Assembly (NCBI GenBank): GCA_030867875.1
Contig: JAOWCC010001501.1
Location: 30,338,792-30,402,791, forward strand
Reading direction: 5' to 3'
Origin: Actinernus sp. WN-2022
Lineage: Eukaryota; Cnidaria; Anthozoa; Actiniaria; Actinernidae
Length of the DNA stretch: 64,000 nt
The notes beneath the pieces were generated by a model that was given only the letters and a program-made list of their open reading frames with translations, did not search any database and was not told the origin of the DNA. Numbering within the stretch: position 1 is the stretch's first letter; the number at the start of each line of letters is the position of its first letter. Made by a program: the position numbers and the translations under genes. Positions 14,501 to 41,500 of the stretch are shown piece by piece.

Positions 14501-17500
14501 CGACATTTAGCTGTCAAATTTTGGTGGCTCTGGTGCCACCAATGGTTGCAAACATTTTGAGTGGGACTGTCTGAGCACCAAAATTAGGAATCCAGGGATG
14601 ATTTTGATGTATGACATTCATTAATTCGTACTTAATGACAATAAAAGAGTCAAATTTAAAGAAGATCAATACGATGATCATTTTTTGGCCAAAATTGCCT
14701 TTTCTGCATTAAAAAAAAAAGATAGTTAACAATTTCATGAAATCAACATGTTAGTATAAGTACATGTAGTACAATTAATGTGGTGCTCTTGATGTACATG
14801 TAGATTACTAGTCACTAATATTTTTTTTTATGGCTAAGTCATTAAACAACAGACATATATAAACTTATGCTATCCTACATGTACATTTAAAATACCCTAC
14901 AAATTACCTAGTACATGTATATTGAGCCAAAATAAACCAAAATAAACTAGGTTGTACCAAAATAAACTAGGTTGAACCAAAATAAACTACATTGTAGGTT
15001 GAACCAAAATAAACTAGGTTGTACCAAACTAAACTAGGTTGAACCAAACTAAACTAGGTTGAACCAAAAAAACTAGGTTGAACCAACATAAACTAGGTTG
15101 AACCAAACTAAACTACGTTGAACCAAAATACACTAGGTTGAACACAAAATAAACTACAATGTAGGTTGGACACAAAATATACTAGGTTGGACACAAAATA
15201 ACTAGGTTGAACCAAAATAAACTAGGTTGTACCAAATTAAACTAGATTGGACCAAAATACACTAGGTTGAACCAAAAATAAACTAGGTTGGACACAAAAT
15301 ATACTACAATGTAGGTTGGACACAAAATATACTAGGTTGGACACAAAATAACTAGGTTGAACCAAAATAAACTAGGTTGAACCAAAATAAACTAGGTTGA
15401 ACCAACATAAACTAGGTTGAACCAAACTATATAAACTAGGTTGAACCAAACTAAACTAGGTTGAACCAAACTAAACTAGGTTGGACACAAACTAAACTAC
15501 AATGTAGGTTGAACACAGAATGAACTAGGCTGAACACAAAATGAACTAGGCTGAACGAAACTAAAGTAGGCTGAACGAAACTAAAGTAGGTTGAACCAAA
15601 CTAAAGTAGTAGGTTGAACCAAACTAAACTAGATTGTACCAAAATAAACTAGGCTGTACCAAACTAAACTAGGTTGTACCAAAATAAACTAGGTTGTACC
15701 AAAATAAACTAGGTTGTACCAAAATAAACTAGGTTGTACCAAATTAAACTAGATTGAACCAAAATACACTAGGTTGAACACAAAATAAACTAGGTTGAAC
15801 CAAAATAAACTAGGTTGAACCAAAATAAACTAGGTTGGACAGAAAATAAACTACAATGTAGGTTGGACACAAAATATACTAGGTTGGACACAAAATAACT
15901 AGGTTGAACCAAAATAAACTAGGTTGAACCAAAATAAACTAGGTTGAACCAACATAAACTAGGTTGAACCAAAATAAACTAGGTTGAACCAAACTAAACT
16001 AGGTTGAACCAAACTAAACTCGGTTGGACACAAAATAAACTAGGTTGAACTCAGAATGAACTAGGCTGAACACAAAATGAACTAGGCTGAACGAAACTAA
16101 AGTAGGCTGAACGAAACTAAAGTAGGTTGAACCAAACTAAAGTAGGTTGAACCAAAATAAACTAGGCTGTACCAAACTAAACTAGGTTGTACCAAAATAA
16201 ACTAGGTTGTACCAAAATAACTAGGTTGAACCAAAATAAACTAGGTTGAACCAAAATAAACTAGGCTGTACCAAACTAAACTAGGTTGTACCAAAATAAA
16301 CTAGGTTGTACCAAAATAAACTAGGTTGTACCAAATTAAACTAGATTGAACCAAAATACACTAGGTTGAACACAAAATAAACTAGGTTGAACCAAAATAA
16401 ACTAGGTTGGACACAAAATAAACTAGGTTGGACACAAAATAAACTACAATGTAGGTTGGACACAAAATATACTAGGTTGGACACAAAATAACTAGGTTGA
16501 ACCAAAATAAACTAGATTGAACCAAACTAAACTAGGTTGAACCAAAATAAACTAGGTTGGACACAAATAAACTAGTTTGGAAAAATTTAACCAGAAGAAA
16601 CATAAATTCTAATAATACCACAGGTATACAAAACATAGAACAATGTAAAACAATATGTATATTTTATGTCATCATCCAGGCCCTATTGGTGACATATGGC
16701 CCATATTCAAATTGATGATGAGTGTTATTTCGTTTTTGACATATTTTCTATTGTTATTTGATAACCTTTATTTCACTAAGATCCCAGTGAATTTCAACAT
16801 ATTGCTCATTAGATATTCAAGGGCTTTTGTATGTGATATAAAGACCTTGAATATCTAATGAGCTATATAAAGGATCTTGAATACCTAATCAGGTCTTTAT
16901 ATTGAAATTCACTGTAATGTTAGTGAAATAAAGGTTATCTAATAACAATGAAATAAGTCAGTGAAATACCTTGAACCTCGGCATTCAGCCATATACATCC
17001 CTCGGGCCATATGGCTGAATGCCTCAGTACCCAGTATTTAATAGGCCTTTTGCAACAACTGACCTTGTCAGTCAAAAGTATTGGTGCCAGTTCAAAATGG
17101 ATGCCAGAAATGGAAAGAGCATATCAAAATTAGTAAACAAAACAAGTTTTAGGTTCATAACTTTCAAACCGAAAGCATAATGATTTTCTGAGATCTCGAA
17201 ATTTAACAGAGTTTGTGAGGCTGCATGAAGGGCAAAACTAATTTTGGCATGCTCTTTCCATTTCTGGCATCCATTTTGAGCTACATGTAGCACCAATACT
17301 TTTGATTGACAAAGTCATGTGACCAGTTGTTGCAAAAGGCCTATTCTTACTTAAACATTGAACAAGTTACATTATTTTGCAATGGAAAATTTTAGCTGCA
17401 GGAATAATAACATGTTTCCTACCTTTGATGTTTTTATAATCAAAAATCTGATTGAATGTGTTATTATACTATTTTCTACATGTAGCACAAATATTTGATA

Positions 17501-20500
17501 CTACTGGACGTCCTTTCGCAGCAGCATTCTATACTGGACAAGTGGCCTACCACAACTTAATTTTTGTGAGTAACTACATGTATATACCGTAATTATATTA
17601 CATGTATCTTAACATAGAACATCCTGGCGATTTGTATAGGAAATCGCATGAATGTGAGTGCTATATTACATGATTTATAGGCGCTGAGTGATAATTATTT
17701 TGAAAGAAATCTGACAATTGCATGCATGTATTGAGCCTTTTATAGGCGAGTGCAATTTGAGAACTTTCAAAATATCACTTAATATTGCCTAGATTCAAGG
17801 GTTTCATTAAGTTTTAGAGTACATGCAGATGTCCTGAATTAGCTCATATCAAAGTAGGCGGTCGTACAGCTTATTTACATTCAATAGAGTTGTAGTTGTA
17901 ATATCAAGACTTAGTAACCGGCTGTAGGTGACAAAGTAACCATCTTCTAATGAACATGTCTGTTCTTGTTTGCTTGATTTAAAATGCCTGTGTATTATTA
18001 TGATTAATTTGCCATTATATTAGTTTTGTAGATGGCAAAATTGACCTTCTAAAAATGCTCCATTTCGGTCTGGTCACATAGGCTTAAGGCTTGTTTGAAA
18101 GAGCTTCATGATGTACAATAATTATGTAATATATATAATGGGCAAGCCTATAATGTATGAGCGGAGCTCTCAATAATTAAATACGAAGAGATGCACGTGC
18201 ACACATGTATACAACTGTATGTATAAATGGAAATTAATTTACGAAAATAAATAGTGCATGTGCAGTTGAGCTGCACGCGCACATATGTACAAATGTATGT
18301 AACGGGAAATATAATGCGTGCATGCAGACGTAATTACGAATATAAATACTGCACGTGGAGAGGAGTTGCACACATATATGTAATGGAAAGGTGACAGCAT
18401 ACAAAAGAAAGAACATGACGCGTATGCATGCATGCGGAGATGTAATGGAAATTAAAGTTGGAAATTGAATATTTTACGCATTACTGCAAAAACATTATAC
18501 ATCTAATAATAATAATAATAATATCATTTATTTAAACACTGTATTGGAGATACTACAGCATTTGAGCTGATGTGGCCGTGATAATACAAAAGAAACGATA
18601 TAACGATCTAGCTAACTTTATTGATTATGTAAATTACAAGATGTGATGGGAAAAGAGACTATTGCATTGTAAGATATACATTGAAATGGTACTAACTGAC
18701 TAACTAGTTGAGTGACTAACTAATTGACTAATAACTTAATTAGATGAATAAGTGTGTAGTTGTGTAAATGGATAGGTGGATCTCTAATAAATATTGAGAT
18801 AAATTTAGAAAATCACAAATTCCCATAAACGGAGGATGGAATGTAAAGGACAGGACAGCGTTAAATAGCCAAACAAAATAGAGCACCCGATTTAGGACTC
18901 GAAAACCTCACGTGTTCTGCGCACTGGTGCACGGTCGGGTGGTTGGGCAAGATCATGTCATTACAATTTTACTCTCATTCTATATGTATGCTGCTCCACT
19001 CACATGGGCGCTCAGCTATAAACCACAGTTAAAGAGCCACTCTCAACTGTGATTCTTCTCTTGTCTAGTATACTACGTATTTCCTCCTATTAGTAAACAG
19101 AAAATGGTGATTCAAGCATTTTGAATAGCTAGCAGTTCCACAGAACAATGGCAGCATAATGAGCAGGCCTGCAGAACAATGGGGGCATACTGAAATGTAG
19201 TAGTATAGTCGGCGTCAAAATGATACCCGTTTTTCTTGCACAACAAAACTCAAAAAGTTGTCTACTTATGGACGCCTTGTTTTCTTGCACAAGGGGCGTC
19301 ATAAAGCGAATTCAGAAATCCACTTCATGACGCCCCTTATGCAAGAAAAAAGGCGTCCATAAGTAGACAACTTTTTGAGTTTTGTTGCACAAGAAAAAAG
19401 GGTATCAGTTTTGACGCCGACTATACTACTAGGGGTAACTAAGGGTCATTCAAAGTGTCACTAGACATTCTCGTACATAAAATCCAACTTCAAACTTGAG
19501 TATCTGTTAGAGACAGGATTATTATACTGTATATCGATATCTTCCACTATGGATTATATATCGTGCCTCCCTCTAGAAATCTTGACTAAGATCGTAGAGC
19601 ATGCAGGTCCTACGTCATTCTCAAGCATTGCAAGGACATCGAAACGCCTAAACGGTGCTGCGTCTCTCGCGCGCTACAAAGACGTAGACCGAGAGTTCCG
19701 TATACAAGTACTATGTTTTGGTTTGGGTTCTACTCATAATGATGCCGATCGAGACAAATTGGCTAGGACTTTCGGTATTTCCGCAAGCCACATCGACGAC
19801 AGCCTTCCTCTCATCTACGCCAGTGATCATGGCAACCTTAATATTGTTAAGTGGCTCACCAAGCACTTTCGTTTCAATAAAATGGATAGGTACACCAATA
19901 ATACTCTAGACGCTGCCTTAAGGTATGGTCATCTTGATCTCGCTAAGTGGCTCACTAAGCACTTCCAGTTCACCAAAGAGAGCAATGCCGTCATGTTTGC
20001 TATGATAGAGGCCATTACGAATGGTCAGCTTAATATCATCAAGTGGCTCATTCAACATTTTCAGATAACCGTAGAGTGTGAATACATTCATCATGCTCTA
20101 CTATGCGCCTGTAGAAGTTATTATCTTGATACCTCTGGATGGTTCATTAATTGGTTCATTAAGAACTCCCATCTCACCATAGAGGCTGAAAATGCCCTAC
20201 TAGACTACTATGTGAATGTTTATGAGGCCAGGTATGGACCGATTGAATCCAACTGCACCTGAAAAATCCAACTTGAAGTATATGTTAAAGGAATGATTAT
20301 TATACTGTATATTGCTACCGAATGGTATTAGTATATATTCTTTATTCCACAATACTAGCTTACGTTGTTATCTTAGTACGCATTAACACCATACAGATCG
20401 AACATGTCGAAGAAGAACTCAAATGTAGACGCCACAATGATTGAGGTAGTAACTTGTGATTGGTTGCTGAGAGGGAAGGACACGAAATGCCAAAAGAGGA

Positions 20501-23500
20501 TTTCGAAGACAACGAAGTTCTGTTGCCAGCACAACTACCAAATCTCAAAAGGTTGTGCCCCACTCATACCATGCTCGAAGTGCGGTAAAGGATGTCGTAC
20601 TAGTTACGGGCTTTGCTCAAGATGCGACCGTCTCACCATCAAGGTGAAGTGTCCCGGTGTCTATGTAAAACGCGCTAAGAAGTCCAGCAAGATGCTAGAG
20701 GAGCCAAGAAAGGAGGAACTTGCAGAGCCAAACGTGGTGGAACCGGAGGAAGAGCAGAATGCTGCCGATGTGAGGCACGCTATGGAGTTCGACGAGATGC
20801 TAGAGGAAGACCTCAGGAATGAGTTGATTAGGACTGCCAACAAGCCGGGACCCGTCTACGACTCGTATCCAAGAAAGGCTAAAGCAGAGGAAGAATTGCC
20901 CGTGGAACCAGAGGAAGGTCTCGGAGAGTCTCTCACCCATGCACTCAACAAGGTGTTGGCTGCCTTGAGGAGTGAGAAGGACGATTAGGAATAGCCACGG
21001 AAAAAAAAAAAAGAAGAATGAAGAAGGTCGTTGCGTGGCCCTCTTCATTCTTTTTTTCTTTTTTTTTTTTTCTATTAAACGTATAAACATCTATAGTTGT
21101 ATCATGGACGAGCTAGTCAGATTGTTTGGTCCTGGAATTTGTAGAAGCCTGAATATCAAACCACAAGTGGAACATATTAACGTCAGTGAAACATGTCCTG
21201 ATTGTCTCTGCCCCTTTGAAATACAAGGAACGGAATTCGTATGCCCCACCTGTGGTCTTGTTTCCGAGGGTGAACCATGTGAAGAAACTAAGATCGACAT
21301 CATTACTACTCGACTGCGTATAGTAGGTCCAGATGGATTTCAGTATCAAAGTGATCTAGACCGCGCAAAGCCAAAGCAAAGTGATGACACGGAACTGCAA
21401 CGACGAATGCTCCTACAAGAACTACGAGCATACAACACTATTTACAAACAAAGTTGTGACCTATCGTTCCCTATGAACACTTTAGGAATCGTAGCCGACA
21501 CATTTATCCAAGTAATGAAAGTTCATCCCAAGCGTAGCGATGCTAAGAGACATATTCTAGCTGCTCTACTCTACCATGCATGCATACAATGTGGATTCGT
21601 CCGATCTAAAGGTGAGGTTGCTCGCTTCATGCAACTAAGCAACAAAGGCATCCATAGAGGAGAGGTCTTTATACGTTCTCTGTGTGACGACGATGAGATC
21701 AATGTAGACTTGAATGCCGAGCGCATAGTTCCTCACATTGCAACGACTTTCCTACAGCTCGATCCTCAAGGAGTACTTATAGACGCTCAACAAATAGTCC
21801 ACGAGGTTGTTACTACAGCAATAGAAAACAATGTAGGCAGATCGGTAATTAAGACGAAAGTTGTTGGAGCAAGTTACGAGGTGCTACATCGTTTAGGATC
21901 GTCTATGTCTCTTAACGAGGTCGTCGAACGATGTGACGTATTTGGAAATTCAGTCAAGCGTTTTGTCAAGGAGTTGTCTTCTTACCATTCCTACTTTGAA
22001 TCAATCTACACTAGACATGGGCTAACTAGCAGTAGGACTTAGCGAAGTGGAAGTGAGAGCCATGTTCGTTTCTTTCATAGGAAACGTTGATTCTTACATT
22101 CCAAGTTTTTCTCGCATTTCCTTTTGCACTTCTTGCTTGAGTTCGGCTCGAACCCGATCCGTGCTTTTTTCACCTATGGAAGCCTTGCGACGAATTTCAG
22201 ACCTCATGATCTCATACTTATTCGCTTCGTTCAGAATGAGACTGTATTCGGAGTCAGATATGTTTTCATCACGTAGTGCCTTCGATACTAGATCGCGAAT
22301 CGTATTGATTTTTGCCTTTGCCAACATAGTTGTCTTTTCATGCTTAGAAACCTTCATTCCTAACTTCTTAGCTCCAAGGGTCGTAGAGGCTGAAATTAAT
22401 CCACATAGCCCACCAATAACTCCAAGTGGTAGACCAATCACTATTCCAACCCCAGTCAACGCTGCACCCAATCCAGATCCAGATAAGATCACAGATAGAC
22501 CTCCAGTTGCCACTGCGATGCCATGAACTATTCCTTGAGAACGTGCATATTTCTTGCGCACACCTTCGTAGTGCCTTTCTTGAACTTCTATGTCCGAAAG
22601 TGTGTCTCGGATCGTTTGCAGTCTAAAGTTCTTTCCAGTGTCACTAGCAATCTGTGGATAGATACTTGGTGCTGATGGAAACGGTTGAATCGAATCGCCT
22701 TCCATTGTACGTTATACGTATAGCTTACTCAAGCTTCAACACGTATCGTATAGGTCGACCACGGAAGTCTATCAGATTGCCTTTCTCATCGAGAATTGTC
22801 AGACGAAGGCTGCTTTGTATCGTACCTAGAGCTTTGACATCTAGAGGTTGTAGTGAGGCATACGTCGTTTTCACAAATCTATCGCCTCGGACATCTATGC
22901 TAGCCAAGACTTTCGAGCGTTTTCCCTCTAGGAGTGAGAAGCTGGAATCCACTACGTCACAGTGGACATATACCGTATCGATCTCAAAGAGGATATTTAT
23001 ATTGAAAGTGCCTACCGCTATAGTTAAAGTCTTGTTAGGAATATCTATGGCCCCCCTACATTCTTTAATAAACAGTCTACAGATATTTTTGCTAAGAATG
23101 ATAGGTTTCATGACATCTAGGATACAACTCCCTGTCGATAAGAGTTTCCCGAATTTTATGATACCAGCGTCGATTGCGGGTTTGAAGAGGGTCTGGAGGG
23201 TTGGTATATCGTAGTTCCCCACCTTAATTTCGTGTGGAAACATCACACCATTGACCTTCCAATGAAAGCTCCCTGGCTCTTCTAGGTTCCACCAACTGTT
23301 CTCGAAAGTGATCTCGACTAGTGAAATGTTCCGTATAAGAATAGGGTCGTCGAAGTAGACAGTATGGTCAGCCGATGTTGTGGTGATATATAAGAGAACC
23401 ATCTTATATGTTGAAGGTATAACTATATATACGTATAGCTTCAACATGACAGACGCATGGCGACAGTTCAAGTACCTATTTCCTAATGCCGTACTTGGTT

Positions 23501-26500
23501 GGTTCGAATCTACTTCCGATAATGTTAATTTCATCGATCGGGGAATGTCTCATCGCGTGTTCACGGAGGAAGGTCCTCCTACTAAGACGGGAGGTGGTAA
23601 ATTGATGGGGTGGCTCGGTCGCACTGGTAAGGCTCTAGATGTAGCACTTGGTGGTAAGTCAGTTTACGAGAGCGTAATATTCGCACGGGAACACGAAGGT
23701 CTTTCCAAACACAATTGGATAGAAGAAAACGATAAGATCGCAACGTTGAATGCAAATCTATTAGCGAAGTTCAAGAAGAAATATCCACAGGCAGATCTTC
23801 ACAAGTTCTATGCCTCTACGGAAGTGAACGGTCCAGGCAAATATTCGACGAGTATTTGGTTTCGAGATGGAGATTCTAGCTATATCGTTTACGGCGATGA
23901 TGTCTCAAAGTTATCTGCAGTCACTCAAAGCCGCATCGACAATGCATTGCAGGGAATGGTTGGGGGTTTCCCATCTACGTTGATACTAGACATGAGTGTG
24001 AAATATCCCATTACAGCAGTTCCTTCTACTGAACCGGCACAAGATATTGATCTCACTAATCTACAGATACATATCACCTCAAAGGATGATTTCAAAGTAG
24101 GCGTTCCAAATATATTCAGGGAGATCGTTGTAAAGCATACGACAAAAAAGGAGTCCCAGCATTGGTTGGCTGGTCCGGATTTCCACTACTGGCCTCAACA
24201 ACTTAATTTTGCAACGTGGTGTGCAACTTCCGGATGTGGAGTGTCGTTGTTTGACCCCACTTTCAAAACGTATCCACCAGTCGTTCAAGGGTTCCTACGA
24301 TTCCACGTATATTTCACGATACGAAGAATTCTACGTGAACTTGGTGGTACTCATGGAGTTCCTTTACCTGGTGAATCTCATTTCAAGCAAAGGGATAACC
24401 TCTATAACAAATCAGCTCTTGAGAAATTGTGCATCGAATTCGGTATATCTCGAACACCAGACTTTCGGTGGAATGGCTTAGGAGACGTCTACGTAAACTC
24501 TCATGGAAAAATGGTGAACTATACGGAGAAGTATGCACATAATACTTCGTTCTCTGCTAAGTGGCCTGGTGGTGACTTTAAGTTTCCTGAGGAGAGTCGT
24601 ACGGTCTATCAGTTTTCTTTAGCGTACATTGGCAATAACAACGGTAAACAATACAATTGGTTCATGCCACCAATCGGAAAGGGTTTGACAGATGTTGGAT
24701 TGGGTAGGTTGAATAGATCTGTCGAGGCTTTTGGACATTGCATACTTGGTGCACAAGCAGATCTGAACGACTCCATCATACATAGCCATAACGTCAAAGA
24801 AAAGTTTAAGAGTTTAGTCGAAGGTGCTATTCTCGAAAACGATTTAGTGGTGAGCTACAATAACTATCTTACTGCTATAACGAGGACGCATAAGAGGCTC
24901 GATTTAGCAATAGCTACAGGTGTGCGATTATTGCCAAGCAATCTAGAGTACTATCTTGGTAAGAAAGATGGCTATAAGAATCCAATCCCGAAAGCTACGA
25001 AAGATATGGTGCTAGGCACTAACGCCATCAATGTAGAAGTCAAAGGACACCCACCTCTTCTTATGGAAGGACCGTCAGATAAGAAATCGGTACAGCCTCT
25101 CGAGAAACGAGTTCCTGTACCAAAGGCAAAGGCAAAGGCAAAGGCAAAGGTAAAGGCTGTCGTCTCACAACATGAGATTAATCTCGCAGTGACATCCATT
25201 GCTGCAGCTGGAATCGTATGGACGTTGTTTCGTTAACGACGTTTGTATTGCTCCACTACGAAGACCACTGCTGCTACGATTAACAACCAAAGGTTGTTTG
25301 CTAAGACTCCAACAACGTCAGCAGCCATACTGAATATGAGACTCACAATTGGTCCAATCATCTTAGGTAGAATCTCCTCTAACTTTTTGCCTATTGCTCT
25401 TAAACCTTTGACAGTTGTTTTAGCAGCTGCTTTGGCAGCATCTCCAAATCCCGGGACTAGCGCGGAAACTTTCTTCGTCAGATTGGAAACTATTACACCG
25501 ATCACAGTACTTACCGCAGCTACCACGCTAATTATACTGACTCCATACTTCTTGAAGAGGATTCTTATACGATCCCTAAGTGACATCCGTTCCACTATAG
25601 CTCCTTCTATTTGCTCTAGGACTGCTTGCTCCTCCTGATCGGTCCTTATTTCATTAGTAGCGTTTTCTTTCTGAGTTTCGGTAGATGTAGGGTCTTTGAG
25701 TATTCCTACATTCCGGTCGATCCTCTTACTCAATTGATTTTCAGCTACTATGACTTCTTTTAACATTTCTTCCCTCGAGGGTCCTAAGACTCTTTTGAGA
25801 CCTTTTCCCATCTTCTTATATAACTCACCTTTCTTGGTGGTCAAAGGAATCGCTTTTTCTTTACTTCCATACTCGCGGATAAAGACTCTACCATCAGACA
25901 TGGTTGCAATCTCAAGCGTGCCTCGAATTCCCACATCGTGGTATTTTTCCCAGACAGTCTCGAACATATCCTGTCTTGCATTTTCCGATAAACCCTGTTT
26001 GAAGATTACACTTCGATCGGTATACTTTGGGATTTTCTCTTTCTCCAGCCTCTCCAGGATTTTTTCATTTCTAGAAACGTTCGAGCCTTCCGAGTCGAAG
26101 AGTTCGTCGAAGTACTCGTCATCTTCTCTAGAAAACGAGGTTTCCTGATTCTTTGGTCTAGCACCTTCTTTGCCGTAGTTGCGTCTGGTTTTCATTGGGA
26201 CCATTTCTCCTGACTCTTCTGGAAATATTGCATCCCACTCCTCATTCACATTGATAGTATCATCTTTATCGTAGTCTCCACCTTCATCAGTTCTTTCATC
26301 GGACCTACCCTCAGAGGCCATGTTAAACATATCTATATATATAGTTATATTCAACATGATCTCATCAAAGTTGGATCCCACACAAGTACGAAGAGAGCCT
26401 CATGCACTCAAGGCTCCACGAGACTTGTATAGGAAAACTTTCACTCGATCATCTGCCAATCCAGGTGAGACTCTATACGTAGAAGTTCCAAAGCTAGCAG

Positions 26501-29500
26501 AAGATGTAGTACTAGTACCTGGTAGCTTAGCGCTATTGGGCGACATCGTACTATCTGGTGGACATGCGAATAACAGAGTCGTTTCGAACGTTGGACGCTG
26601 TTTGGTCATGCGTAGAATCTGTAGGATGGGAGCTGAAACAGTAGAAGACCTTGTCAGGCCAGACCTCCTACAAACATACTCCGATGTATACCTATCTACG
26701 CAGGAGAGAGAGTCTAGAATACAACAAGGCATTCAATCAGAGAACTTGAATAAGCTAAGATCGAAAGCTGGTGACGCAAGTACTTCTGTTGCTGCAGACA
26801 ACGCGCTCCTAGCTGCATGTGGTTCCAAGTATAGGATTCCATTAGATGTTGACATTCTGACACAACATGGAGTTCTATATCCACATGCCTTAGAAAATAT
26901 AATTACATTCGAGTTGACTCTAGCGGCTGCCAACGAGGTAGTAATTGGATCGGATACGACGAAGATAGGTACGTACCAACTTACCAACATCCAACTAGAA
27001 TACGAAGCAATCAGGAACGAAACGCTGGCTAGTAATGCACTTCACAAATATGAAATAGGTACTGCATTCCTATACAACTACGCTGTTCACTTCAAAACAG
27101 TAGATATCGCTAAAACCTCTGATACTTTGATATCTCAAAACGTTAATGTTCCACGACGATCCTTCGCTGGACTACTTCTACTATTCATAGATCCACCTAC
27201 CATTGGCACGCGAGATAGTGAAGCATTCTCGAATCCAGATATCTTGAAGGTAGAAGTAGATGTCAATGGGATTCCCAACAGACTCTTTCCAAGCGGTATG
27301 CTTCCCCTAGATTTCTGGGAGGCTGCAAGAAGCTGGTTTGGTACACCCAATACTTCTATGACTCCAAAGAAGTTCTTTGAAAATAGATTCTCTATTCTAA
27401 TCGATTGTCGCACAGCAAAAGATTCCACCGTTCATGGTGATGGCTTGGCACAAACCGGCAGTGGAAAGGACATCGACATTCGCATACATAGAACTGCTAA
27501 GGGAAGTGGAAATGTGAAAATGCACATCTATGTCCTTGCGGATGCTCAGGTCACGATATTGAACAGATCTCTGCAGAGTATATTATACTGATGGATTCTC
27601 TCGTAGAGCACGTGCCGTTCAACGCACTCATAGTCGGTCCAACGAATTGTGGGAAGACTGCGTTTCTCATAGAACAACTTCGTGGAGCATTTCGTGGTAA
27701 GTTCGATTACATAGTACTGATTTGTCCTACGTATGCCCACAACAAAACTTATCGTGGATTCGCAAATCGAGATCCTCATTTCTTCGTCATATCGCCACCA
27801 CAAGATGCCATCGATGCTACTTTGAGTATTTGCGCAACGTTTTGGTCAGGTACCAATACTCTATTGATTCTCGATGATTGCGCCGCATCGAAGGACGTCA
27901 AGAAACGAACTGAAAAGCTAGTGGACTTAGCCTTTTCTGCACGACACATAGGGCTTTCCGTTTGGGTGCTGTCCCAACAACTAACGAGCATATGTAAACC
28001 CTTCCGCGAGAACGTAGCTATCGTAGTAGCGTTTCATACAGCATCGGTCGTAGATGGTAAAAAGATATTTGAGGACTATGGAGGCTCACAAGAATGTAAA
28101 GAGTTACGAACGATACTTGGATTCCATAAGTTCGCTCGCATGTGCTTCTGTCTCCGCCATCCTTTCGAGGTAGTGTTAGAGCTCCCAGCATCTATAACAT
28201 ATTATCATGGATAGTAAAGAAATACTCGAGATATTCGGTGAGGATGTAACAGGCCCACCAAAAATAGAGAATGCGCATTCCTCTGTAACGGAAGATCGGG
28301 AAGCTCTCTCGATTCTAGCCGTAACTGGTACGACAAAGGAATACCTAGGGAAGAATTTCTCTCTAGGGGACATTTCTAAACTGTCAGCCAAAGACGTAGA
28401 CCGCTTACATACTAGATACCAGTCCGTCTTAGCAAAACAAATAACAGGGTGTTTAGTAAATAGAGCACTCAGCTTAGTAGTTCGTGTAATCGCATACGTG
28501 TTACCTATAGATTCTCACGAAGGTCTACTGAAGGATCTACAAGAAGACCAATTAATCCGAAATGAGATATCTGGCCTGGCCGGGTCGTTGTCTTCCAGAG
28601 CAGGTCCACTTGTAGCGACAGCTAGCGGTATGTGTCACATCCTTGCACACTATACGCCAGGGAAAGAGGCGGATGACGAAGTCGATGAATATGAAGTGGA
28701 TACCCCAGAAAGAACCGTAGTACTTGAGGCATATTCATCATTAAAGAATCTTTAGTGTCACACACCTGTTGAACCTCCACATATACCTACTATATCGAAT
28801 CAAGATGGAAGGCCAGACGGATCAGATAACTGCGAATCCTCCAACGACTGTACCAACTAAAAAAGGAAAAAATCCAAAGCGTGTTGCAGCAGGAAAATTA
28901 GCTTGGGAGAAGGTCACTGCCCGTGCAAAAGAAGCTCAAAAGATGGAGATAGAACGTGAAAATGAACCATCCAAAGAAACTAACGTAGAGAAAGGTCGGT
29001 TCGAAAACCTGACTATACTCGCAGTCATCGGTACTGGCGCCACATTGTTTGGCACGTACTTTGCGTACAAGAAGTATGTAGATGGTAACACGCGAGCTGC
29101 CCCCGTTAGCACGATACAACCTGCAGCTCCGGCAAAGCCAACGGCACTAGACATGGAGTAACACTTAAAGACTCGAGACCATAGTAGTATATATCTAGAT
29201 GGAGAAGGAATTGACGAAGACGGCAACCGATGCAGTCAAAATCGTTGGACTCGCTGCTGGTATTGGGTGGATCGTAAAAAAGACTACCAAGGAATCTATG
29301 CTTAGTGATCCTTCTTCTTCCCTAGTGAATTACGCGAAGTGGACTGCCGTGATACTTGGTAGCTTATACGCAAAGGAATATCTTGAGAAACAACTTGAGA
29401 AAGAAAAGCCCAAACCCAAACCGTAATGGCGGCAGCAATTGGAATGGCCATCCTCGGGGCTATATTGAATGCAACGGCATTTACTGGTGGTGGCATACTA

Positions 29501-32500
29501 GCTAGAATGATTGGAAAGGGTGATATGGATGCAGAACGAGAGAGACACAATAGGGCCATCGAAAAACTAGCAAGCGAAACGAAAGCCTATAGAATCGAAC
29601 GTCAAAGACGATACGACCATGCACAAGAGCAGGAAGGTCTTGAACGTGACGCATACAACGCTCAAAGAGATACCAACGAAGCCTTAGTGCGATCCGATAA
29701 GTTACGTAAAGAGCTAAAACGGCTCAAAGAGATGAAAGAACCCCGCTTATCTGACTACTACAAACCCTCAAACAATCAGAAGACTGGTGAGTTGCTCTAC
29801 GTTGGTGGTGGAATGCTAGGCGTTGGATACGCTATTAGTAAATGGATATAGATACTACTACCCCTAAGCTACCCCTAAGCTACTACTAAGCTACCCCTAA
29901 GCTACCCCATAAGCTACCCCTAAGCTACTACTAAGCTACTACTAGCTACCCCTAAGCTACCCCTAAGCTACCCCTAAGCTACTACTAAGCTACCCCTAAG
30001 CTACCCCTAAGCTACTACTAAGCTACCCCTAAGCTACCCCTAAGCTACTACTAGCTACTACTAAGCTACTACTAGCTACTACTAAGCTACTACTAAGCTA
30101 CTACTAAGCTACTACTAGGTTACTACTAAGCTACTACTAGGTTACTACTAAAAAAAAAAAAGGAAAAAAAAGGAAAAAAAAGGAAGAATGAAGAGGGTCA
30201 CGCAACGACTTTCTTTATTCTTCCTTTTTTTTTTTATCTGTTGAAGGTTGGGACGTATAGATGTATGATGGATTCTAAACTTGCGAATATCTTCTATGGT
30301 CCTATGGGCTATTGGAAAGGTCACTCTGCAATTGGTAAGCTATCGGTAGCAGCGAAAGCATCGGAAGACGTGGCTAGGAGTTGGTTGGAAAAGCAATCTA
30401 TGTGGCAAATATATCTACCACCACCAAAACACATTCCACGACCGCATTGGACTGTATCGAAACCAAATGAAGTCCACCAAGCTGATTTGATATTTCTACC
30501 ACACGATCGTCCTGGACGTGGAAGGAAACTATACAAGTATGCCTTAGTGGTAATCGATGTAGCTTCTCGATACAAAGAAGCCGAACCTTTGGCATCTAAA
30601 GATAGTGGTGAAGTTTCTGCGGCATTCGAACGAATCTATAAACGTAGTCCAATCGAATGGCCAAAGACGTTGCAAGTGGATCCTGGTAGAGAATTCATGG
30701 GACGTATGTCTGAAACTCTAGAACTACATGGTACGAAAGTTCAACGAGGTGAAGCTGGTAATCATAGAGCGCAAGGCTTCGTCGAACGAGCAAATAGAAC
30801 TCTAGCCGAGAGATTGTTTGGGTATCAGTATGCACAAGAGATGGTACTTACTTCGGAAGGATCAGATGAACGTAGTAGAGAATGGGTAGTTCGTTTACCA
30901 ATGGTTATCAAAGCTATGAATAGTGAGGTGACTCGGTTGACTGGTAAAGAGCCTTCGAATTCTGTAGTGGCGCAACAAGTAGATCTGAAGACTCCTACGT
31001 ATTCGCGCACCGTTGGATTGAGAGAAGAGCGTCTACCCTTCGACGTTCTAGTTCGATATCTTTACGCCCCAGGAGAATTGGAAGGAGGTGAAAAACGTAG
31101 AGCTACTGATCCTGTGTGGAGTTTGCAGATATACACCATTTCGCGAAGCGTAGTATCTTCGGGACAGCCTGTGCTTTACTACCTTGCGAAGGAGAAGGAT
31201 GCACCCAAACGTGGATTCGTTCGTGAAGAGCTACAAGTTGTTCCTAGGGATACGGAACTACCACCAAAAGGAATTCTGTTTGTACCTAGACGCTAAACAG
31301 CGTACTCTATTGGCTCGGTGTGGATTCCATCGGGAAGAACACGTCTTTTGTCGTAGTAAGCCGATAGCCCAAGCTTCCATTGGTCGTAGGTTACCACACC
31401 TTCTGGCAATAGTCGGAAGCCTCGGTTTTCCGCCATGTCGATACTACCCTGGAGGGCTGCTTTGAATCGATCCCACGAAATGTCGTTGTGACGCCTAGAC
31501 ATACCTTTAGCGGAATACTTCTTGCTGCCACCCGTATCGACGTAGTAGGCTTTCGAGCATAGGGCAATGGCGCGCTGTCCTTCGAATTCGAGTTTGAAGA
31601 GTCCTGGGGTACGACTGCTCCACTTGTCCCAAGCTAGCCATTCCTTCCTTTCGGCTTCGAAATCCTCACGTAGTTCCGGTCGTACAACTTCATCTATGCT
31701 GTTTCCAGAGATGGCAATGTACGCACTGTCCGTGTCCATCTGTATATATTCGAAATCTTTGCGATCGATGTACTTGTCGAGGAAGTCGTAGTAGAACTCA
31801 AGCATACGCAGCTTTGCGAGCTGGTACACCGCGATACCTACTTGGAAAGGGCGTTTGATTCGGATCTGGTCCTTTCGGCTCTCGAGTTCATATGCATCAC
31901 CAATCTCTTCCAGGTCTTCGAACCAAACACTTCGCAAGGCCTTGTCCACAACCTTCTCATCTTTTGTATAGGTGACCTTTGTTTGGCGTCCCAAGTCTTC
32001 GAGCAACTTTCCGTAGGCACTGTTTCCTAGTAGCTTGAACACATCTGCCAGCAAAGCCTCGCCTTTATCTTCATCTCCCATACGACGTGCCTCAGTGACT
32101 TGGTCCACGAACCATCCGAAGATTTCTTTGGGTTCGTAGTCTATCGTGCGGTAGACAGCAGTGATCACTGCGCCATGCTCTACATACCAAAGTAGAAGAG
32201 GAGCATAGAGTAGCAACTTCTTTCCAGAGAGACTCCCAACTAGCTTCTTTTCCTCGCTGAGCTTTCTACCTGTCTTTGTGAGGTAGGCCAACATTTCTGG
32301 AGGGATTGCTTCTTTGGGGATTTTCTTGTTGTAGAAGAAGGGTGGCATCTCCTCAAATTCCTTCCACAATTTCTTTGGTATCTCGATGTCTACTTCTGCA
32401 TATCCAAACCACGTTCCACCAAGTAGACATTCAACGAATCCTTCAGTGGCTGGACCTGGATCATCATAGTGCACAACCTTTTCTTTTCCACAAGGCATTT

Positions 32501-35500
32501 CGAATTCCATGGTAGAAAGATATAGGGCGTTGGCATCGTATCCAAGAATCTTACGACAAGTCTTAGTTCCTCCCTGATGACTACGAATCTTAGTTTTTCC
32601 CGCTTCGTGGAGTCTGGTGAACACTATGCTTGGACCTCCCACTACAGCGTCTTTCAGCATGCGGTAGGCTTCCTTACTTGGAGCGTACATCTCAGCTCCC
32701 CTTTCTACACTACCTCGAAGCAGGAACTGTAGTGAGACTCCTGGGATGGACACTGCGTCTTTCAGCATGTCTACTCCTTTCTCGTGATAGAAATCTCGCA
32801 TCTTTTCGAGTGCCTCTAGGAATGGAACTACATCTAGGTCGTTGTAGTATCGTAGCCAGTCTGCAAAGGTTTTCATTCCTTTGTCGAGAAAGGTGCACTC
32901 ACAGTCTTCGAACTCTGACATAGATAGTAGATGTTCTCTTTTCAACTTCGAACCCCACTCTGGATAGTCTGGTAATCCAATGTGATCCAACTTGTCTGGA
33001 GAATCGAACCACTCATATGGGAAGAAACTCTTTTGCAACTCACAGCCATAGGCAGCGACCCAACGTTCATAAGAAGTTCCAGGTCCAAGGTAGTTGATCA
33101 CATCTAGGAAACGGAAATCTGGGGTCAATAGGAACATAGTGGAATTGGCTTTCTTTGCTACCAGGATCTTTGAACAGGTGTCAGCAATGATTCCTACGAA
33201 GTGCTCCCTGATCAGATTGAGATCGTACCTGCCAGAGTTGAATCCCACTACTGGAACTTGGTTGATCCATTCGTCGATCCTAGCTCGTTGTTTCTTTGGT
33301 AGGGTGTCAAAAGAGAATTCAGGTGTCTTGGGGCAGAACTGTTCCACAACGACTTCTTGGATTGTCTCTGCTCTTCGCTGGAGTTCTTCGACGAAGGCTT
33401 TGATGAGTTCTTTTGGATTGCGTCGACAGATGTGGGTTGGTGTTCGATTGTATGTGTCGGCAATTGATACTGATATTGGGACATGGACGTTTTCGATGGT
33501 CAGGTGGTCTGTTGGTTGTCTTCCTTTTGTCGTGTCGAGATAGGCTTCGAAATCGTAAACTATGAAGTGTGGGTAGACAGTTTGTGTTGGTGTGGGGACC
33601 GGTTTGTTTTTCTTCTTCGTGGAGCAGCCCCAAGCTTCCACTACTGTATAACCAGCTCCTTGTAGCTTTGCCGTTCTTTCACAGGTCTTGAGATAGAGCC
33701 TCCTTTCCCTAGGGAAGCATTTCGGGCAGCCATGGAAATAGCATCCATGAAATTGGAAGATGGTTTTCGAAAGAGGTTCGTAGCCGTCGACCGGCGCTCC
33801 TTCGATCCAATGCTCTCCACCATGCCCACAAGCTGCATGATGAATGTGTTGCCCAATCCTTTTGGTTTCGCGTTCTAACCAGCGTAGAGCGACTTTGCTG
33901 GCTGTGCTCTCTGGCCAGAAGGCTTTTTCGTATGCCGACTGGGGTACTGTGATTACTTTTCCGGGGCAAAAGATCTTTGTTTCTCCACGACTACAACGAT
34001 CTGCATGGCGGTGAAGGTCTGAGGCTTTCGTGAACCGTTGCTTACAATCGTTACATACGTAGATGTGCCCTAGCTTGTTGATGTTCTTGATGTAGAAGGC
34101 ATGTCCTTCGTATATCCCAATCGTCATCGTATGCTTGTAGTGAGCTGCATGTCGCGTCAGATGCCAAGCGCCATCCTCCGTGGGTTCATACACCCGAATA
34201 CCGATTCCAAAGTGTAACTCGACTTCCTCCAGCTGGTCTATGGAAGTTCTGGGAACGTCTTGTGTGATCGCTGTCAGGCGATAGAAGTCCTGGGCAAGTT
34301 TTCGAGCCGAGGTGTTGCACTTGTCTGCACGGGCTCCTTTGTATACGGCAAGGCAGCGCCACAGACATAGGTTGTCGCCATATCGATCGAGGGCAAACAT
34401 TCCTTTTTTCTGACGAAGCCATTGAGGCAGGGGACCTGTTCCCAACAAAAGCTGACGATCGATCACAACTTTTACATCTACGTAGATCCAACGAACGAAG
34501 GCCCATTGGGTATTTGGTCGATTGATGTTGTCGGGATTCAAACGAGCTGTCTCCTTGTTATTGATCCACTCTTCTGCATCTTCTAGGATGTTCACCCATG
34601 GAGAGCCTGGGACAGTCTTGGAGAATAGCATCACACGCCCGTCGTTGACATTGCGAATGCGATAGGTGTAGCTGTATCGTAGGTAAAAGCTGGTGGTTAC
34701 ATTTGCAACTAACTTTTCCATGATCCTAGGGGTCAAATCTCCTGCCACACCTTGGAAGAAGCGCCATCGGATAGTACGGCGGCCTATCTCCATACCCTCG
34801 AGCATTCCATCTCTCTCCTCTAGAATAGCACCTGCCTCTCGAGCTAGACTCCGTGGAAGTGGTTCACTACGTGGTCCCACCATTCTCCCTTCGATATAAC
34901 TATGTGTTAGGATAGCTTTAACAGACACTCGAATTTGGATTTTTATGTGTAAGGATGTTGCAGCGATATATCTCTCTTCGGTATAACTATGTGTTAGGAT
35001 AGCTTTAACAGATACTCGAGTTTTGGATTTTATGTGTAAGGATGTTGAGGGGCGATATATCTCTCTTCGGTATAACTATGTGTTAGGATAGCTTTAACAG
35101 ATACTCGAGTTTTGGATTTTATGTGTAAGGATGTTGCAGCGATATAACTATATGTAATTATATCTCTAATAGGATTATCGAGTTGGATTTTATGTACAAG
35201 CAATCGATGTCGATATAACTATATGTAATCATATCTCTAATAGGATTATCGAGTTGGATTTTATGTACAAGAATGTCTAGTGACACTTTGAATGACCCTT
35301 AGTTACCCCTAGTAGTATAGTCGGCGTCAAAACTGATACCCTTTTTTCTTGTGCAACAAAACTCAAAAAAGTTGTCTACTTATGGACGCCTTTTTTCTTG
35401 CATAAGGGGCGTCATGAAGTGGATTTCTGAATTCGCTTTATGACGCCCCTTGTGCAAGAAAACAAGGCGTCCATAAGTAGACAACTTTTTGAGTTTTGTT

Positions 35501-38500
35501 GTGCAAGAAAAACGGGTATCATTTTGACGCCGACTATACTACTAATGTACACAATAAGAGCTACAATGTACCGGAGGGATCACGGTTGAGAGTGTTTCAG
35601 TCTATAACACTTTAACCATTCTCGACAGGATATTTACAGACAGTTTGAGAAGCTAGAGCAAAACAGACTGAATGCAGCATATGAACAACAACAGAGTGTG
35701 TTAAGAGAAGAAAATAAGGAGCCAGAAGAACAGGCATTGGGTACTGACACCCAGCAGCATGACTTGTGAGTAGCATATGTCATAACTCTATTTGACACAC
35801 AGAAGAATATTTTCTATGTTCTATAAAATAATTATGCACGAGTAGAATGCAAGAGTATTTAGCAGATTTTCAAGACCTTGAGAGTGCATTAATCACACTC
35901 ACTTGATTTGTATTTTTATAGTACATAGAAAAACCATCTTATGTTTGATTTATGATATAAATTTTGAATCTACATGTACGTGGTTCTCCAGCTCAAGCAT
36001 GCATTCATAAATAAGAAAATAATTTAAACTATTTTAGCAAATGCAATCGCATGTTCTTAGGATGAAAGAACAATTCATACAGAGCAGGAGCCATATAATC
36101 ATAATTCATGCAATCCATGTGTTTCTTTACAGAAACGAGGAACAAGATAGCCAAGACTCTAAGAGTAATGGATCTCCTATAATAATGAGGTGGATAAAGA
36201 AACCTGAACTGGAAAATATACTGGAAGAAACCTTATCAGATAAAGAGGTATGGTGCTCTCCACAAACAATCTTAAAGAACCTGAAGAACATACATTTCAT
36301 ATATTTAAACATAATCTACATGTATCAATGTACATCCCCTGCGAAATGAATTCCCAGCTTTCTGGGAATTCCTAGGAATTCTCAGGAATTCTTGGGAATT
36401 CTAAGAAATTCCCACTTTTGCAAATTAGCTCTGCCTTTCGGGGCTTGGAATTACTGGGAATTACTAGGAATTAGGTTTATGAAGGTGTAAAACGCTTGGA
36501 ATAGTTTGGAGTTCCTAGGAATTCTTAACAATTTCATCTTAAGCCATTTTGTTTTGTGATGGTGGCATTTTGTGTAGGCTTGAAATTCCTGAGAGTTTCT
36601 AGGAATGAAGGTTTTCTCGTTTCTTAAGTCTGACACTGAATTTAGAAGTGTTCAGGTCTTCCCTGCCCTAGTGCTAGACAGATTACAGAGACTTGAACAA
36701 TGTTACCAATTGACTAAGATCTTGCACTCATACATGTAATGTATAAATACTTTATTGGAAAGCTGTTCTAACATTACAGGGAATAAAGATCGTTTTCATG
36801 AGAAATTTTAAAACTTAGTACACGCGGTTATTACACGTAATTTATTAATGTTAAAGCTTGTTGTCATTGCATGTTGTGTTACGAGCCTAAGTGACTGAGG
36901 CTACAGTAAAAAGCTCAAAATCACGATATTCTCATAGTTATTTTGACTATTACTCACCGATTTGACCTTCCTAGTGTTTAATGAAGCAAAGCATATGTCC
37001 AATCCTTCGAAAATGTGTTTTTATTAAGAAATTCGAACAGAAGTAAAGACACAGACTTTGCCTTTGGCCTTGCTAAAATCTCTGCCATGTTTCTACTTTA
37101 ACCAAGCAAAGACTAGAACCAAGTTGATCCATATTTCGTAATAGCTTGCACCTGATTGGCTGGAGGAGTTATCAGGCCTCCAGGGATTGGCTGAAGTTTC
37201 AAATTATGGACCACGTGCGTGGTACGGTTCACTCAAAGGTAGAATCAACTGTATTTCACGAAAGAGAATCTTTAGATGGAAAGATTATAATAATTGCTGC
37301 CAACTGCGAGGCAATATCACCCACCAGGTAAATATTGTCTATTAAAACTCTTCAGCTTTTCAGTCACTTGCCAGGTACATAACTTGTGTTCGTAAAGGTG
37401 TCTCGATCGAAAGTCTGACACCACTTTGTTAGTTGAAACAAAACGTCATAACTAATTTGAGGTTTTAATTTGCCTGATTCACAACCGATACACAGTTTAT
37501 TGGTACAACTGATGATGACGTCAAAGACTTGACCTGATCACACATATTAATAATTTAATTGTGACGTCAGTTAGCCCCAAGGACACATTACATGTACATA
37601 TATAGAGTGCATGCACCATCACATGATTCCTGTGATTCCAAAAATATAGTGATACTTACTGCCTCGTCATCCATTGTCATTAATGTGCCAACCATGCAGA
37701 GATCATTGGTTCCTGACACAAAGCGGCCTTTACAAATCATGGTTGGACATTAGCATAACAATTGTAATGTTTATTAACACGAAGTATCGCTATTAATGCA
37801 TAAGATTTACATTGGTGCATCAAAAGTGTCACACTTATAAAACTTCTCCAAAGGCATGAACATGTACCTCTTATTTTTTAAATGAAGTATTTGAAAACAT
37901 CCACTGAACTTCAATATATTATTCTAATTAATAAATTCATTTCTCTTTGGGTGAGTAAACAAGCATAGCAAAATGCATGGAGGAAAAGAGAAATTAGTTC
38001 GTAATCGCTAGGAAATACTGTCTATTGTTTGTGATGTCTAGTGCCAGCCAATCAGATCTCACTACATTAGTTGAATATGTATTTTAAATGAGCATGTTGG
38101 CATGTTGGCATTATTACTCGGGCCAGGCCTTTGGCCGGCCAAGTCTTAAATCGCAAATGTTTTTTTTTCCAACGTCGAACTTTTTCGCCGTTAACCAATC
38201 AGATAGCACCTTCTTTGGAAGTTATTTTCACCACCGTACCAATCAGATTGCACTGTGCTTGTCACGTGAACAGTGGACAACATTTCCAGGTTTTTCTAGA
38301 TGGCGGCGAGTGGGAGTTTTGACTTAGCAAAACCTTTAACATCAGCTGTTTTTTTGTGTAAACCAAAGGTTCCTTCAAGTGCAATACCAAGATTTTTGTC
38401 TTTTCTAAAGCTGAGAGGTGTTTCACGGGCTTTGGACGGGAATTTCACATATTATGCGACATGCTTTAAGATACACTCGTGACAGTCGGCTATAAAGACA

Positions 38501-41500
38501 GCAGCTTGTAAATGTAAGTAGCTGCTAATCTGAACATGATAACCTTTATACCAATTGACTGTCGTTGTGTTGTTATTTATTGTTATTAACCTCTCGAAAG
38601 CATAGTAGAAATGACCCGATTTCTCAGTTCTCTGACTGACAGGGGCCTTTTAAAATATGATATGCACATGTATTTAAATGTTTATAAATTTCGGCAACGG
38701 GCCACCCCCGGGCATTTGAACATTTTGAAAAAAATTCGATCAAATGCCCCACTACCAAGGCAGAAAAACTGTTCAAATGCCCCACCAGTTTTTCATCCAG
38801 GCTGTTCAAATGCCCCACCATCGGGGCCCGGATCAGAAAATTTTACAAAGCAAAGACTATTGACAAATAAATAAAATCATTGTCTTATTCAGAATCTCTG
38901 ACTCAAGCAATTCACGGGAAACACCGACGGTGAAAACCACCTTCAACCAGTCAGGGATGAGAACAATCATTTCTACCGGCTCGATCGTTCTTGGTTTCAG
39001 TTATATACTTTATAATAAACGTATTAATGGTTTGAAATTGAATATGTTAGCTTATGTTCTTGGTATATAAAGTATGCAACAGGCACCAATCGGCCCGTCT
39101 TTTACCGATATAATAATTAAGTTTTTAACTCGCGCGCTGTCGAGGGTCGCAGCAAATTCAACTTATCACAATTACCTCTGAAAGTGGCCTTCAAATTTGG
39201 CAGGTTTACTCTATCAAGCCTCTACAAATGTGCAATCATTATCCTGGAATTCCTCGAAGACACGTACGTTCGCCATTTCGACGCGAGCGATGCGAATTTG
39301 TAGACAGAAAGAATGTATTTTTTGAACACTGATCAAATGCCCCACCCCCCACCCCCACTGTTTGTCAAATGCCCGCCCCTGAGGGCTTAGATACTCGTCA
39401 AATTCCCCACCCTCGGGAGCAAGCCTCTGATCAAATGCCCGAGGGTGGGGGGGGGGGGGGGAGATGCACGGGTTTGGAATTGACTGATACATAAGTGAGT
39501 ATAAACTGAGTAAGTAATCCGAAATGAAAATGTTTTCAAACGAACGATAAATGACTGATGTGGAAATCGCATATTTATCTGTGGCGTGTTATTGACACTG
39601 GTAAAAACAAATCTTTCCTAAGCACAAGACCAAGGGACAGTTACCACCTAACACGATTATTGGCTTTTTATTTTGTTCTATTTCCCGGGTCTATTTACAT
39701 CTGGCCTGTACCACTTTGTATTTGATTATTATCTCTGGGTTCAGGCATTCTACAGTGTATTTAATGTTTTTTTTTAGAACTGACATAATGATATTATGTA
39801 TAGAGTAGCGTATTTATCATTATTGCAAGTATATAAAATAAAATAAATTTGGTCCAGAACTGAGTATACTTACATGCAAGTGGCACTCTTTCTTTCCCTT
39901 CCCCTTTCTTGGTACCATTATATATCCATGCAAGCTAGATCTTGTTTCAGTGTTTTCCATCTGAGGTGGTCCTGGCTTAAGATACCCCTAAGGTTACCTT
40001 AAGGACCTACCTTCTCATCATTGTATTTCTTATTATGCCATATTACTCGTATACATTTCCATCATCTTATGAGAAAATAAATGTAATTGTTGTTCCTCAG
40101 TTCTTGGCGTCAGCATCGTCGCTTTCACTCGGTCACGATCAGGAGTACGAGTACTTTTAAGAATTATTTGGGAATGAAAATTAATCTTGCTGCGACCCCA
40201 ATGATAGAAAAAAATGAGTGGACATTGCATGTTTCTTTGTGGCCTGCCATTATAAGTTTCAGTCTCCTTCAAGATGTAGAAAATTAAGGCCACTCAGGCC
40301 ACTCAGGGCCTCTTGTTCAGTTATCGTGGTTCTGATCTCACTCAAAATAACGTCTAATTTTAGGGAAGCTGGATAGTAGACTATATAGAACTTAAGTTGA
40401 TTAGAACCATTCAACGGCATACATGTTTGTGCTTGTGTGTTGATCTTAAGCTTAGGAATTAAACTTTACATCCATCATTCTCTAATATATTAGCCAACCT
40501 CATTTAAAAAAACACCAACCCAATCATCCACCATTTTGTCATAAGAAGAAAGCCTGGAAGTAACATTTTCTTTGTTTGTTTCTCATGTCTCTTTGTTAAG
40601 GTAAATGTATTGATTGACTGAATTACTATAAAAATTAATGTCATTTCTCTTTAGATGAGTAAAAACAAGACAGTGTAGTGAAGTACACGAAGGAAAAGAT
40701 AAAATAGTTCCTAATCAAATTTTGCTGGATTAGTTAAATATGTAAATGAACGTCTTGTTAATATAAGGAAAAGTGCTGGGATTATGATCTGTCACGGTAT
40801 GTCTTAGTGTTCGATCAAGGGACTGATAATAAATTAAGTGTAGAGGATTTAAGAGAACGGACAGGTTTGTAAAGGTTCAAGAGTTCGTTAATGAAGACTG
40901 GCACTTGGCCATGAAGAGCCTTAAACGTAATTAAAAGTAACTTAAAAATAATCTTCTCTAGAACCCCTCCACTGTATACAGTGTTGATCTTAAAGGGACT
41001 ATACATGTCACCAGGATTTTTCTGATTTTCTGTCAAATAATAATGTAGAATTTTTTGATTATTAAACGATGTTAATTTTCGAAGAGACAACAAGCTAGAG
41101 TAGCAACATTAGCTAATATCAAAGATAATAGTTTAAAACTTGAGAACGTTAGCCTAACGTTTTCAAGATTTTCATAATCGTAATCCATTTCCATCCTCGC
41201 CATCCATTGTCCAATTAGCTTCTCTGTAGCTTAACTTACGTGTACTATTAGATTGGGGATTCCAAAACGTTTCTGTTTTTCAAGTGTACATTTTCAGATA
41301 AGGGACAGCCTGGCCCTCAAAATCCAATTCCTAGATTAAATCCTGCATTTAATTTGGACATGCATGTACATAAATTAGTAATAATGATTATTTTTTCATT
41401 TGCTCTGTTTTGTTGTCAGTATGAAGTTGTGATTCACCGTCTCAAGAAGTTGTCCAATCAGCCAGATGTTCATCTTGTTCAAGAATTCCTCAATAGATTT

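Follow-up and report, generated by a model that had tools for sequence, protein, structure and literature searches.

A probably recent Polinton/Maverick-type provirus with palindromic ends in an MRPS9 intron of Actinernus sp. WN-2022

RESULTS

The element and its host locus

The window, that is the whole stretch of 64,000 nucleotides analysed here, comes from Actinernus sp. WN-2022 (assembly GCA_030867875.1, contig JAOWCC010001501.1, positions 30,338,792 to 30,402,791 of the forward strand) and contains 0 N. A provirus of Polinton/Maverick type, 16,345 bp long and probably recently inserted, spans positions 19199-35543 and lies in an intron of the MRPS9 gene. MRPS9 exons are present on both sides of it, one from 17487 and one at 35629-35764, and the peptides of the joined exons match uS9m (E 2.7e-18). 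The intron bounds, donor GTGAGT at 17566 and acceptor AG at 35627-35628, are in place, in agreement with a preliminary description made from the letters of this DNA alone, in which the MRPS9 splice sites were called intact. The terminal inverted repeats (TIRs) were said there to be nearly identical, and 290 of 291 aligned bases are indeed identical between them, with 1 mismatch and one 1-base gap. Their inverted arms comprise 179 nt at 100% and 118 nt at 99%; at these lengths and identities, taken without a shuffle control, no room is left for a match by chance. The termini of the element read AGTAGT...ACTACT. A target duplication had been read as 'AATGT/A': AATGT is found on both sides of the element, while the additional A does not stand, because 16 other insertions have exact 5-bp duplications. 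The palindromic nature of the TIRs is a feature absent from the preliminary description. The ends and their surroundings are:

19194-19198, no strand: target duplication AATGT, left copy (single copy in the empty site)
19199-19489, + strand: left TIR (AGTAGT... end), from repeat alignment
19199-19431, no strand: imperfect palindrome, outer part of the left TIR, from fold and covariation
35252-35543, − strand: right TIR, from repeat alignment
35311-35543, no strand: palindrome of the right TIR, arms ~90%
35544-35548, no strand: target duplication AATGT, right copy, in the flank sequence
35629-35764, + strand: MRPS9 exon, 85 bp past the right edge of the element

Empty site in the same assembly

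Looking for the empty allele with a single AATGT had been proposed as a check, and we used a 140-base string in which both flanks are joined by one AATGT. The empty site is present in the same assembly, at C1273:128544-128683, and matches 140/140 bases across the junction. Next best come the two flanks in the window itself, which match one half each; the remaining listed matches are partial (72-95%, mostly the left-flank repeat; 40 of 118 candidates scored). Eight kb around the C1273 site align to window positions 15251-19199 at 92.9% and to 35544-39171 at 96.9%. Exon sequences lie on both sides of the empty site, making up one continuous MRPS9 locus, and C1273 is a separate 669-kb contig, as would be the case for a haplotig. 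A tandem-repeat array at window positions 14935-16580 aligns to this contig in many registers.

Size of the family and target duplications

Alignment to related elements in the same genome had also been suggested, and it revealed many near-identical copies in the 1.39-Gb assembly. The capsid gene has at least 99 matches (99 scored of 5054 candidates), all of which cover residues 1-423 with 98-100% identity and 0 internal stops. In a search with the left TIR 40 places were scored of 2157 candidates; six, the window's included, are identical over 296 bases. Sixteen left-right pairs are formed by 32 of the 40 places, 15 with a spacing of 15.5-17.3 kb and one of 26.2 kb. Wherever both ends of an insertion could be seen, exact 5-bp duplications flank it (17 of 17): 10 of 10 checked TIR pairs, the window element, the relative Y described below and five of ten earlier-fetched copies, the other five having one or both ends outside the fetched pieces.

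Palindromic ends

In each TIR of the window element, the outer ~233 bp form an imperfect palindrome with arms ~90% alike at both ends. The terminal motif is present at both edges of the palindrome, and ~58 bp of non-palindromic TIR follow it at both ends. Folded as single-stranded DNA, a stretch of 236 bases (the left palindrome and 3 bases more) reaches -111.9 kcal/mol as compared to -22.5 for shuffles (z -27.9). All 40 scored TIR places also match in reverse and are thus palindromic. Twenty left ends were fetched by estimated position: 17 have the motif, and the palindrome is present in 16 of these 17. Among the ten earlier-fetched copies, 15 ends have the motif and six are palindromic. Palindromes are mostly 228-234 bp long; three of 133-134 bp lack the centre.

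For covariation we aligned 20 palindromes longer than 200 bp (four shorter ones excluded), which gave 18 distinct rows and 105 base pairs. The structure was derived from the window sequence, which mildly favours pairing; two-sided changes are not a consequence of this. In 97.3% of cells the bases pair, as compared to 42-47% when the partner is slid by 1-3 columns. Changes on both sides were seen in 27 of the 105 pairs and on one side only in 1; 11 depart by unpaired cells alone and 66 are invariant. Four of five covariation measures are above all shuffles (0 of 500 as high). In one of the 20 ends, L064, the centre is reverse-complemented relative to the others (inner arms and apex), which is a flop state.

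Related elements

A related 16.3-kb element, Y, is located at C635:36603100-36619393 (L031:7100 to L033:7393). It has a 5-bp duplication, its TIRs differ by one gap only over 331 columns, and it is inserted within ORF269m of a degraded relative, X. The end of Y contains a 126-bp palindrome, though its similarity to the window is limited to the first ~37 bp. There is one stop in the PolB stretch of Y, and X has a TFIIB-like gene with 67-68% identity. Accessory genes of Y differ from those of the window element.

In the genome the PolB family PF03175 has 165 matches (of 3056 candidates, 75 were scored). Many of them lie in open frames of >1000 amino acids, which suggests that this host has had several active families with a PolB. 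For 20 other PolB matches of the 165, the 7 kb upstream were examined, and a comparable AGTAGT palindrome was present in one case: L023:3025-3220 is a 196-bp AGTAGT...ACTACT palindrome of unrelated sequence, upstream of a different PolB family. We infer that it is an element end; its partner end was searched for and not found.

Genes of the element

The genes and other features between the TIRs are as follows (ORF, open reading frame):

19549-20262, + strand: F-box-like and ankyrin-repeat protein (Pfam Ank_2 5.9e-13; F-box 6e-4, slightly below cut-off)
20404-20988, + strand: ORF194, Cys-rich, with partial relatives in Y and X
21104-22042, + strand: TFIIB-like protein (Zn ribbon and cyclin-like region), frame open from 20972
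22094-22705, − strand: ORF203m, hydrophobic stretch, relatives in Y and X
22725-23402, − strand: ORF269m, candidate penton, with relatives
23403-23445, no strand: promoter-like bidirectional stretch, common to ORF269m and ORF618
23446-25236, + strand: ORF618, family of unknown function, 253 homologues at E<=1e-3
25233-26321, − strand: ORF382m, hydrophobic segments at the C-terminus, with relatives
26322-26355, no strand: promoter-like bidirectional stretch, common to ORF382m and the capsid gene
26356-27591, + strand: major capsid protein, double jelly roll, frame open from 26320
27591-28214, + strand: A32-type packaging ATPase (Pox_A32 2.7e-11)
28207-28755, + strand: ORF182, unknown
28805-29161, + strand: ORF130, one hydrophobic segment
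29426-29851, + strand: ORF141, unknown
29847-30159, no strand: minisatellite, 11-bp unit
30268-31296, + strand: retroviral-type (rve) integrase (PF00665 5.5e-10)
31293-34883, − strand: family B DNA polymerase, PolB (PF03175 2.5e-11)
34876-35271, no strand: subterminal direct repeats (3 copies of 85 bp, 2 of 61 bp), including the sequence upstream of PolB

The frames of the integrase, PolB, the A32-type ATPase and the double-jelly-roll capsid protein are open, as had been claimed. The Pfam scan covered 20 of the 34 ORFs listed for the window. Read by eye from the translations, the integrase has an apparent D,D,E triad and the 1211-residue open frame of PolB has the motifs DANALY, KLLGNSAYG and MDTDS. 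Profile and catalytic motifs place PolB in PF03175, the protein-primed kind, and from this family the priming mode would be protein priming; the whole protein had no match among PDB sequences. The capsid ORF of 423 residues has 1086 homologues at E<=1e-3 (scored: the 7999 candidates sharing most words), and its fold, modelled with a predicted local distance difference test score (pLDDT) of 79.5, is a double jelly roll nearest to the capsids of the iridovirus SGIV (E 3.3e-18) and of PBCV-1. No relative was found in viral contigs scanned with the capsid protein, the capsid alignment, ORF618, PolB and the ATPase. A 71-bp inverted repeat (87%) is located at 21001-21071 and 30165-30235, upstream of the first ATG of the TFIIB-like gene and of the integrase, respectively. 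A pair of repeats, 19486-19539 before the F-box/ankyrin gene and 20264-20317 before ORF194, by eye resembles the subterminal repeats at 34876-35271.

In the TFIIB-like ORF (20972-22042) a CxxC...CxxC ribbon is visible by eye, and a PDB search with a two-sequence profile of the protein returned TFIIB chains alone (best 8.6e-4). There are at least 114 genomic matches to the gene (114 scored of 5340 candidates), nearly full length and 88-100% identical. At 7 of 14 gene starts [TG]TTRAA and then TATA are found, starting 28-43 bases upstream, as compared to 1.2% of 20,000 random 60-mers of the element. Two promoter-like stretches are common to divergent gene pairs. An earlier candidate for the promoter pattern (TTTATATT type) exceeded its shuffle counts, yet lay mostly outside the element, and was dropped.

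Other features of the window

Upstream of MRPS9, on the opposite strand, a polyprenyl synthetase stretch (5.7e-11), PDSS2-like by eye, is located at 3453-3893 (−). In the right flank a tyrosine recombinase (Phage_integrase PF00589, 2.9e-10) at 61317-62171 (+) probably belongs to another mobile element. Inverted-repeat units with arms 87-98% identical, perhaps miniature inverted-repeat transposable elements (MITEs), are present at 6097-6295/6614-6812, 7034-7228/7445-7638 and 54343-54863/55327-55825.

DISCUSSION

Taken as a whole, the results are best explained by a provirus family of Polinton/Maverick type, present in high copy number and with working hairpin ends, of which the window contains a copy that inserted recently and is probably still polymorphic; we give this explanation a probability of about 0.62. 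The observations behind it are an integrase-type insertion that duplicates 5 bp, an empty site, many copies that are nearly identical, core genes with open frames, and ends whose palindromes keep their complementarity. The parts of this explanation differ in strength. That the family is recent and amplified is almost certain. The preliminary description had called the element possibly still mobile; this holds at the level of the family, given the 99 scored near-identical capsid genes and the six identical TIR places; for the window copy itself mobility is a possibility. dN/dS is 0.07-0.40 in ten gene comparisons (window versus Y and X), five of these values being rough because dS is above 1, and the genes of the element look selected for function.

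Several observations weigh against this explanation, and they concern the genes as well as the ends. The high dS in 5 of the 10 comparisons is one of them. There was no Pfam match to an adenovirus-type cysteine protease in the 20 scanned ORFs, where no dedicated profile or fold search was made, and a penton was not identified, ORF269m being a candidate. Matches of the TFIIB-like protein are weak, from 5e-4 to 0.013 (Pfam TFIIB 8.1e-4, under the cut-off; NCBIfam TFIIB 4.8e-4, far under it); its fold model has a pLDDT of 41 and is unusable; and 0 of 2581 word-sharing candidates in a database of 5.8 billion proteins reach E<=1e-3. One or two stops are present in 53 of the 114 genomic matches, some of which may fall in the 44-codon leader. 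The promoter-like motif was defined on the same sequences in which it was counted. As to the ends, the 40 TIR places were chosen by likeness to a palindromic query, and their palindromes are partly a matter of descent because they are its best matches. L059 (C1380:49204790-49205790) has the terminal motif and no palindrome, and 9 of the 15 motif-bearing ends of the earlier-fetched copies are cut within 187 bases, too short to judge. The fifth covariation measure, further pair types, is 37 as compared to a shuffle mean of 41.3, with 493 of 500 shuffles as high. The other (right) end of the inverted copy L064 was searched for and not found. A protein-primed PolB has no need of hairpins, and the Pfam matches of the scanned ORFs include no recognised terminal resolvase or HUH nickase. 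Free hairpin transfer would give inverted ends in about half of the cases, and 19 of 20 ends are constant in orientation. Such a constant asymmetry speaks against hairpins being freely transferred.

The ends maintain their complementarity while the letters change, as follows from the two-sided changes and from the palindromes of Y and L023. The likeliest cause, and on balance a probable one, is that hairpin or cruciform ends work in replication or resolution. The main rival, which we regard as rather unlikely, is that the palindromes have no role in replication and are integrase-binding terminal arrays whose two arms, an inverted repeat in the chromosome, stay symmetric through recombination or gene conversion. 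Homogenisation of the arms in this way could likewise yield covariation, which again speaks against working hairpins. Mosaics by blocks are visible in the alignment, the terminal motif stands at both palindrome edges, and arm differences at fixed positions together with the constant orientation of 19 ends look as if a free hairpin was seldom passed. Against arm recombination, however, stand the 27 pairs changed on both sides versus 1 on one side and the different interiors of the Y and L023 palindromes; moreover, conversion should also remove the fixed asymmetries, yet these persist.

Regarding the age of the insertion, the same MRPS9 locus occurs with and without the element in one assembly, so the insertion is polymorphic unless C1273 is a recent paralogue. 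The simplest reading is that C1273 would be the alternate haplotype, and polymorphism of the insertion is very likely. It is improbable that C1273 is a recently duplicated MRPS9 locus and not an allele, in which case the empty site would be no proof of polymorphism. The flanks are 3-7% diverged with indels, which is high for alleles and weakens our explanation. Nevertheless, the locus is continuous and includes the sequences of both exons, its junction matches at 140/140, the separate 669-kb contig fits a haplotig, and even in a duplicated locus the insertion would postdate the duplication. The recent insertion claimed in the preliminary description is thus borne out by the empty site and by the alignment of its contig with the MRPS9 sequence on either side. 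The evidence speaks against an insertion that is old and fixed, as it does against an assembly join at a boundary; the join was rejected since an uninterrupted empty site exists elsewhere in the assembly. The weakest alternative, a nested fold-back MITE landed by chance at both ends, is highly improbable and was rejected: although a 233-bp palindrome with AGT/ACT edges resembles a stand-alone unit, at either end it occupies the same position, ahead of the same ~58 bp of TIR outside the palindrome, it lacks a duplication of its own, 32 of the 40 scored TIR places pair at element distance, and Y has another palindrome at the same position.

The following life cycle can be proposed. The integrase would join the AGTAGT ends to staggered cuts in host DNA, and PolB would copy the linear genome. 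The 233-bp palindromes could fold into terminal hairpins or cruciforms serving as replication or end-resolution structures, loosely like those of parvoviruses or poxviruses. The ATPase would package the DNA into the double-jelly-roll capsid, and the TFIIB-like protein might guide a polymerase of the host to the [TG]TTRAA...TATA stretches that lie upstream of the integrase and capsid genes. Whether the TFIIB-like protein acts on the element's own promoters is nearly evenly balanced, judged from sequence, with the odds slightly against. That some copies make particles today is possible and rather doubtful. Equally tentative is the wider proposal of an animal Polinton lineage that has swapped plain TIRs for hairpin 'telomeres' with partial flip/flop, encodes an initiation factor of TFIIB type that serves a dedicated late promoter and is now spreading in the host population. 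If true, this would be a small integrating virus that joins Polinton integration to poxvirus- or parvovirus-like end chemistry.

In the literature searched (titles and abstract starts, with most subscription journals outside the coverage) neither palindromic Polinton ends nor a Polinton TFIIB gene was found, and a prior description of either is possible. Covarying hairpin ends, if true, would be a mode of end replication not seen for Polintons in that literature, and a TFIIB-like gene would extend the known range of their accessory genes. It is important to note that the living-virus status of animal Polintons is hard to test without young, polymorphic copies. One assembly with a filled and an empty site and at least 99 near-identical capsid genes makes activity searchable in a living host.

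Comparison with known systems

The hairpin ends of parvoviruses and poxviruses have a terminal palindrome followed by a non-palindromic repeat, and fixed mismatches. The ends described here are similar in having a palindrome and then a non-palindromic repeat, fixed mismatches and one inverted end, in a family known from integrated copies alone. They differ in that no Rep nickase or resolvase was recognised by Pfam in the scanned ORFs and that their orientation is strongly biased. The capsid resembles the capsids of nucleocytoplasmic large DNA viruses, including iridoviruses, in its best fold matches (SGIV, PBCV-1); unlike these viruses, it has only 9-12% identity to their capsids at a template-modelling score of about 0.6, and the rest is a 16-kb integrating provirus. 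In Bellas et al. 2023 (PMC10120064), cnidarian capsids are placed, alone among metazoans, outside the main Maverick cluster. Likeness to this cnidarian Polinton-type lineage is indicated by a single match, that to the coral Oculina patagonica (46% identity), which is the only one named by organism among 120 listed, and is a lead only.

According to the main text of PMC8097293 (Barreat and Katzourakis 2021, intact set), vertebrate Mavericks have 6-bp duplications and (AGT)2//(ACT)2 ends, with two modules on opposite strands, one containing PolB and the ATPase and one the integrase and capsid genes, exceptions being named; 'palindrom' occurs 0 times in that text. The window element shares with them the (AGT)2//(ACT)2 ends, a size of about 16-17 kb, TIRs of a few hundred bp, and genes for the integrase, PolB, ATPase and double-jelly-roll capsid. 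It differs from them in its 5-bp duplications (17/17), in having the ATPase and capsid genes both on the + strand and PolB on the − strand, in the palindromic TIR and TFIIB-like gene, and in that neither protease nor penton was identified. The label 'Maverick' given in the preliminary description can therefore be kept in the broad sense and not in that of the vertebrate type. By its integrase, PolB, ATPase, capsid and TIRs the element is classed from sequence as a Polinton/Maverick, and by duplication length and module order as one apart from the usual vertebrate-type Maverick.

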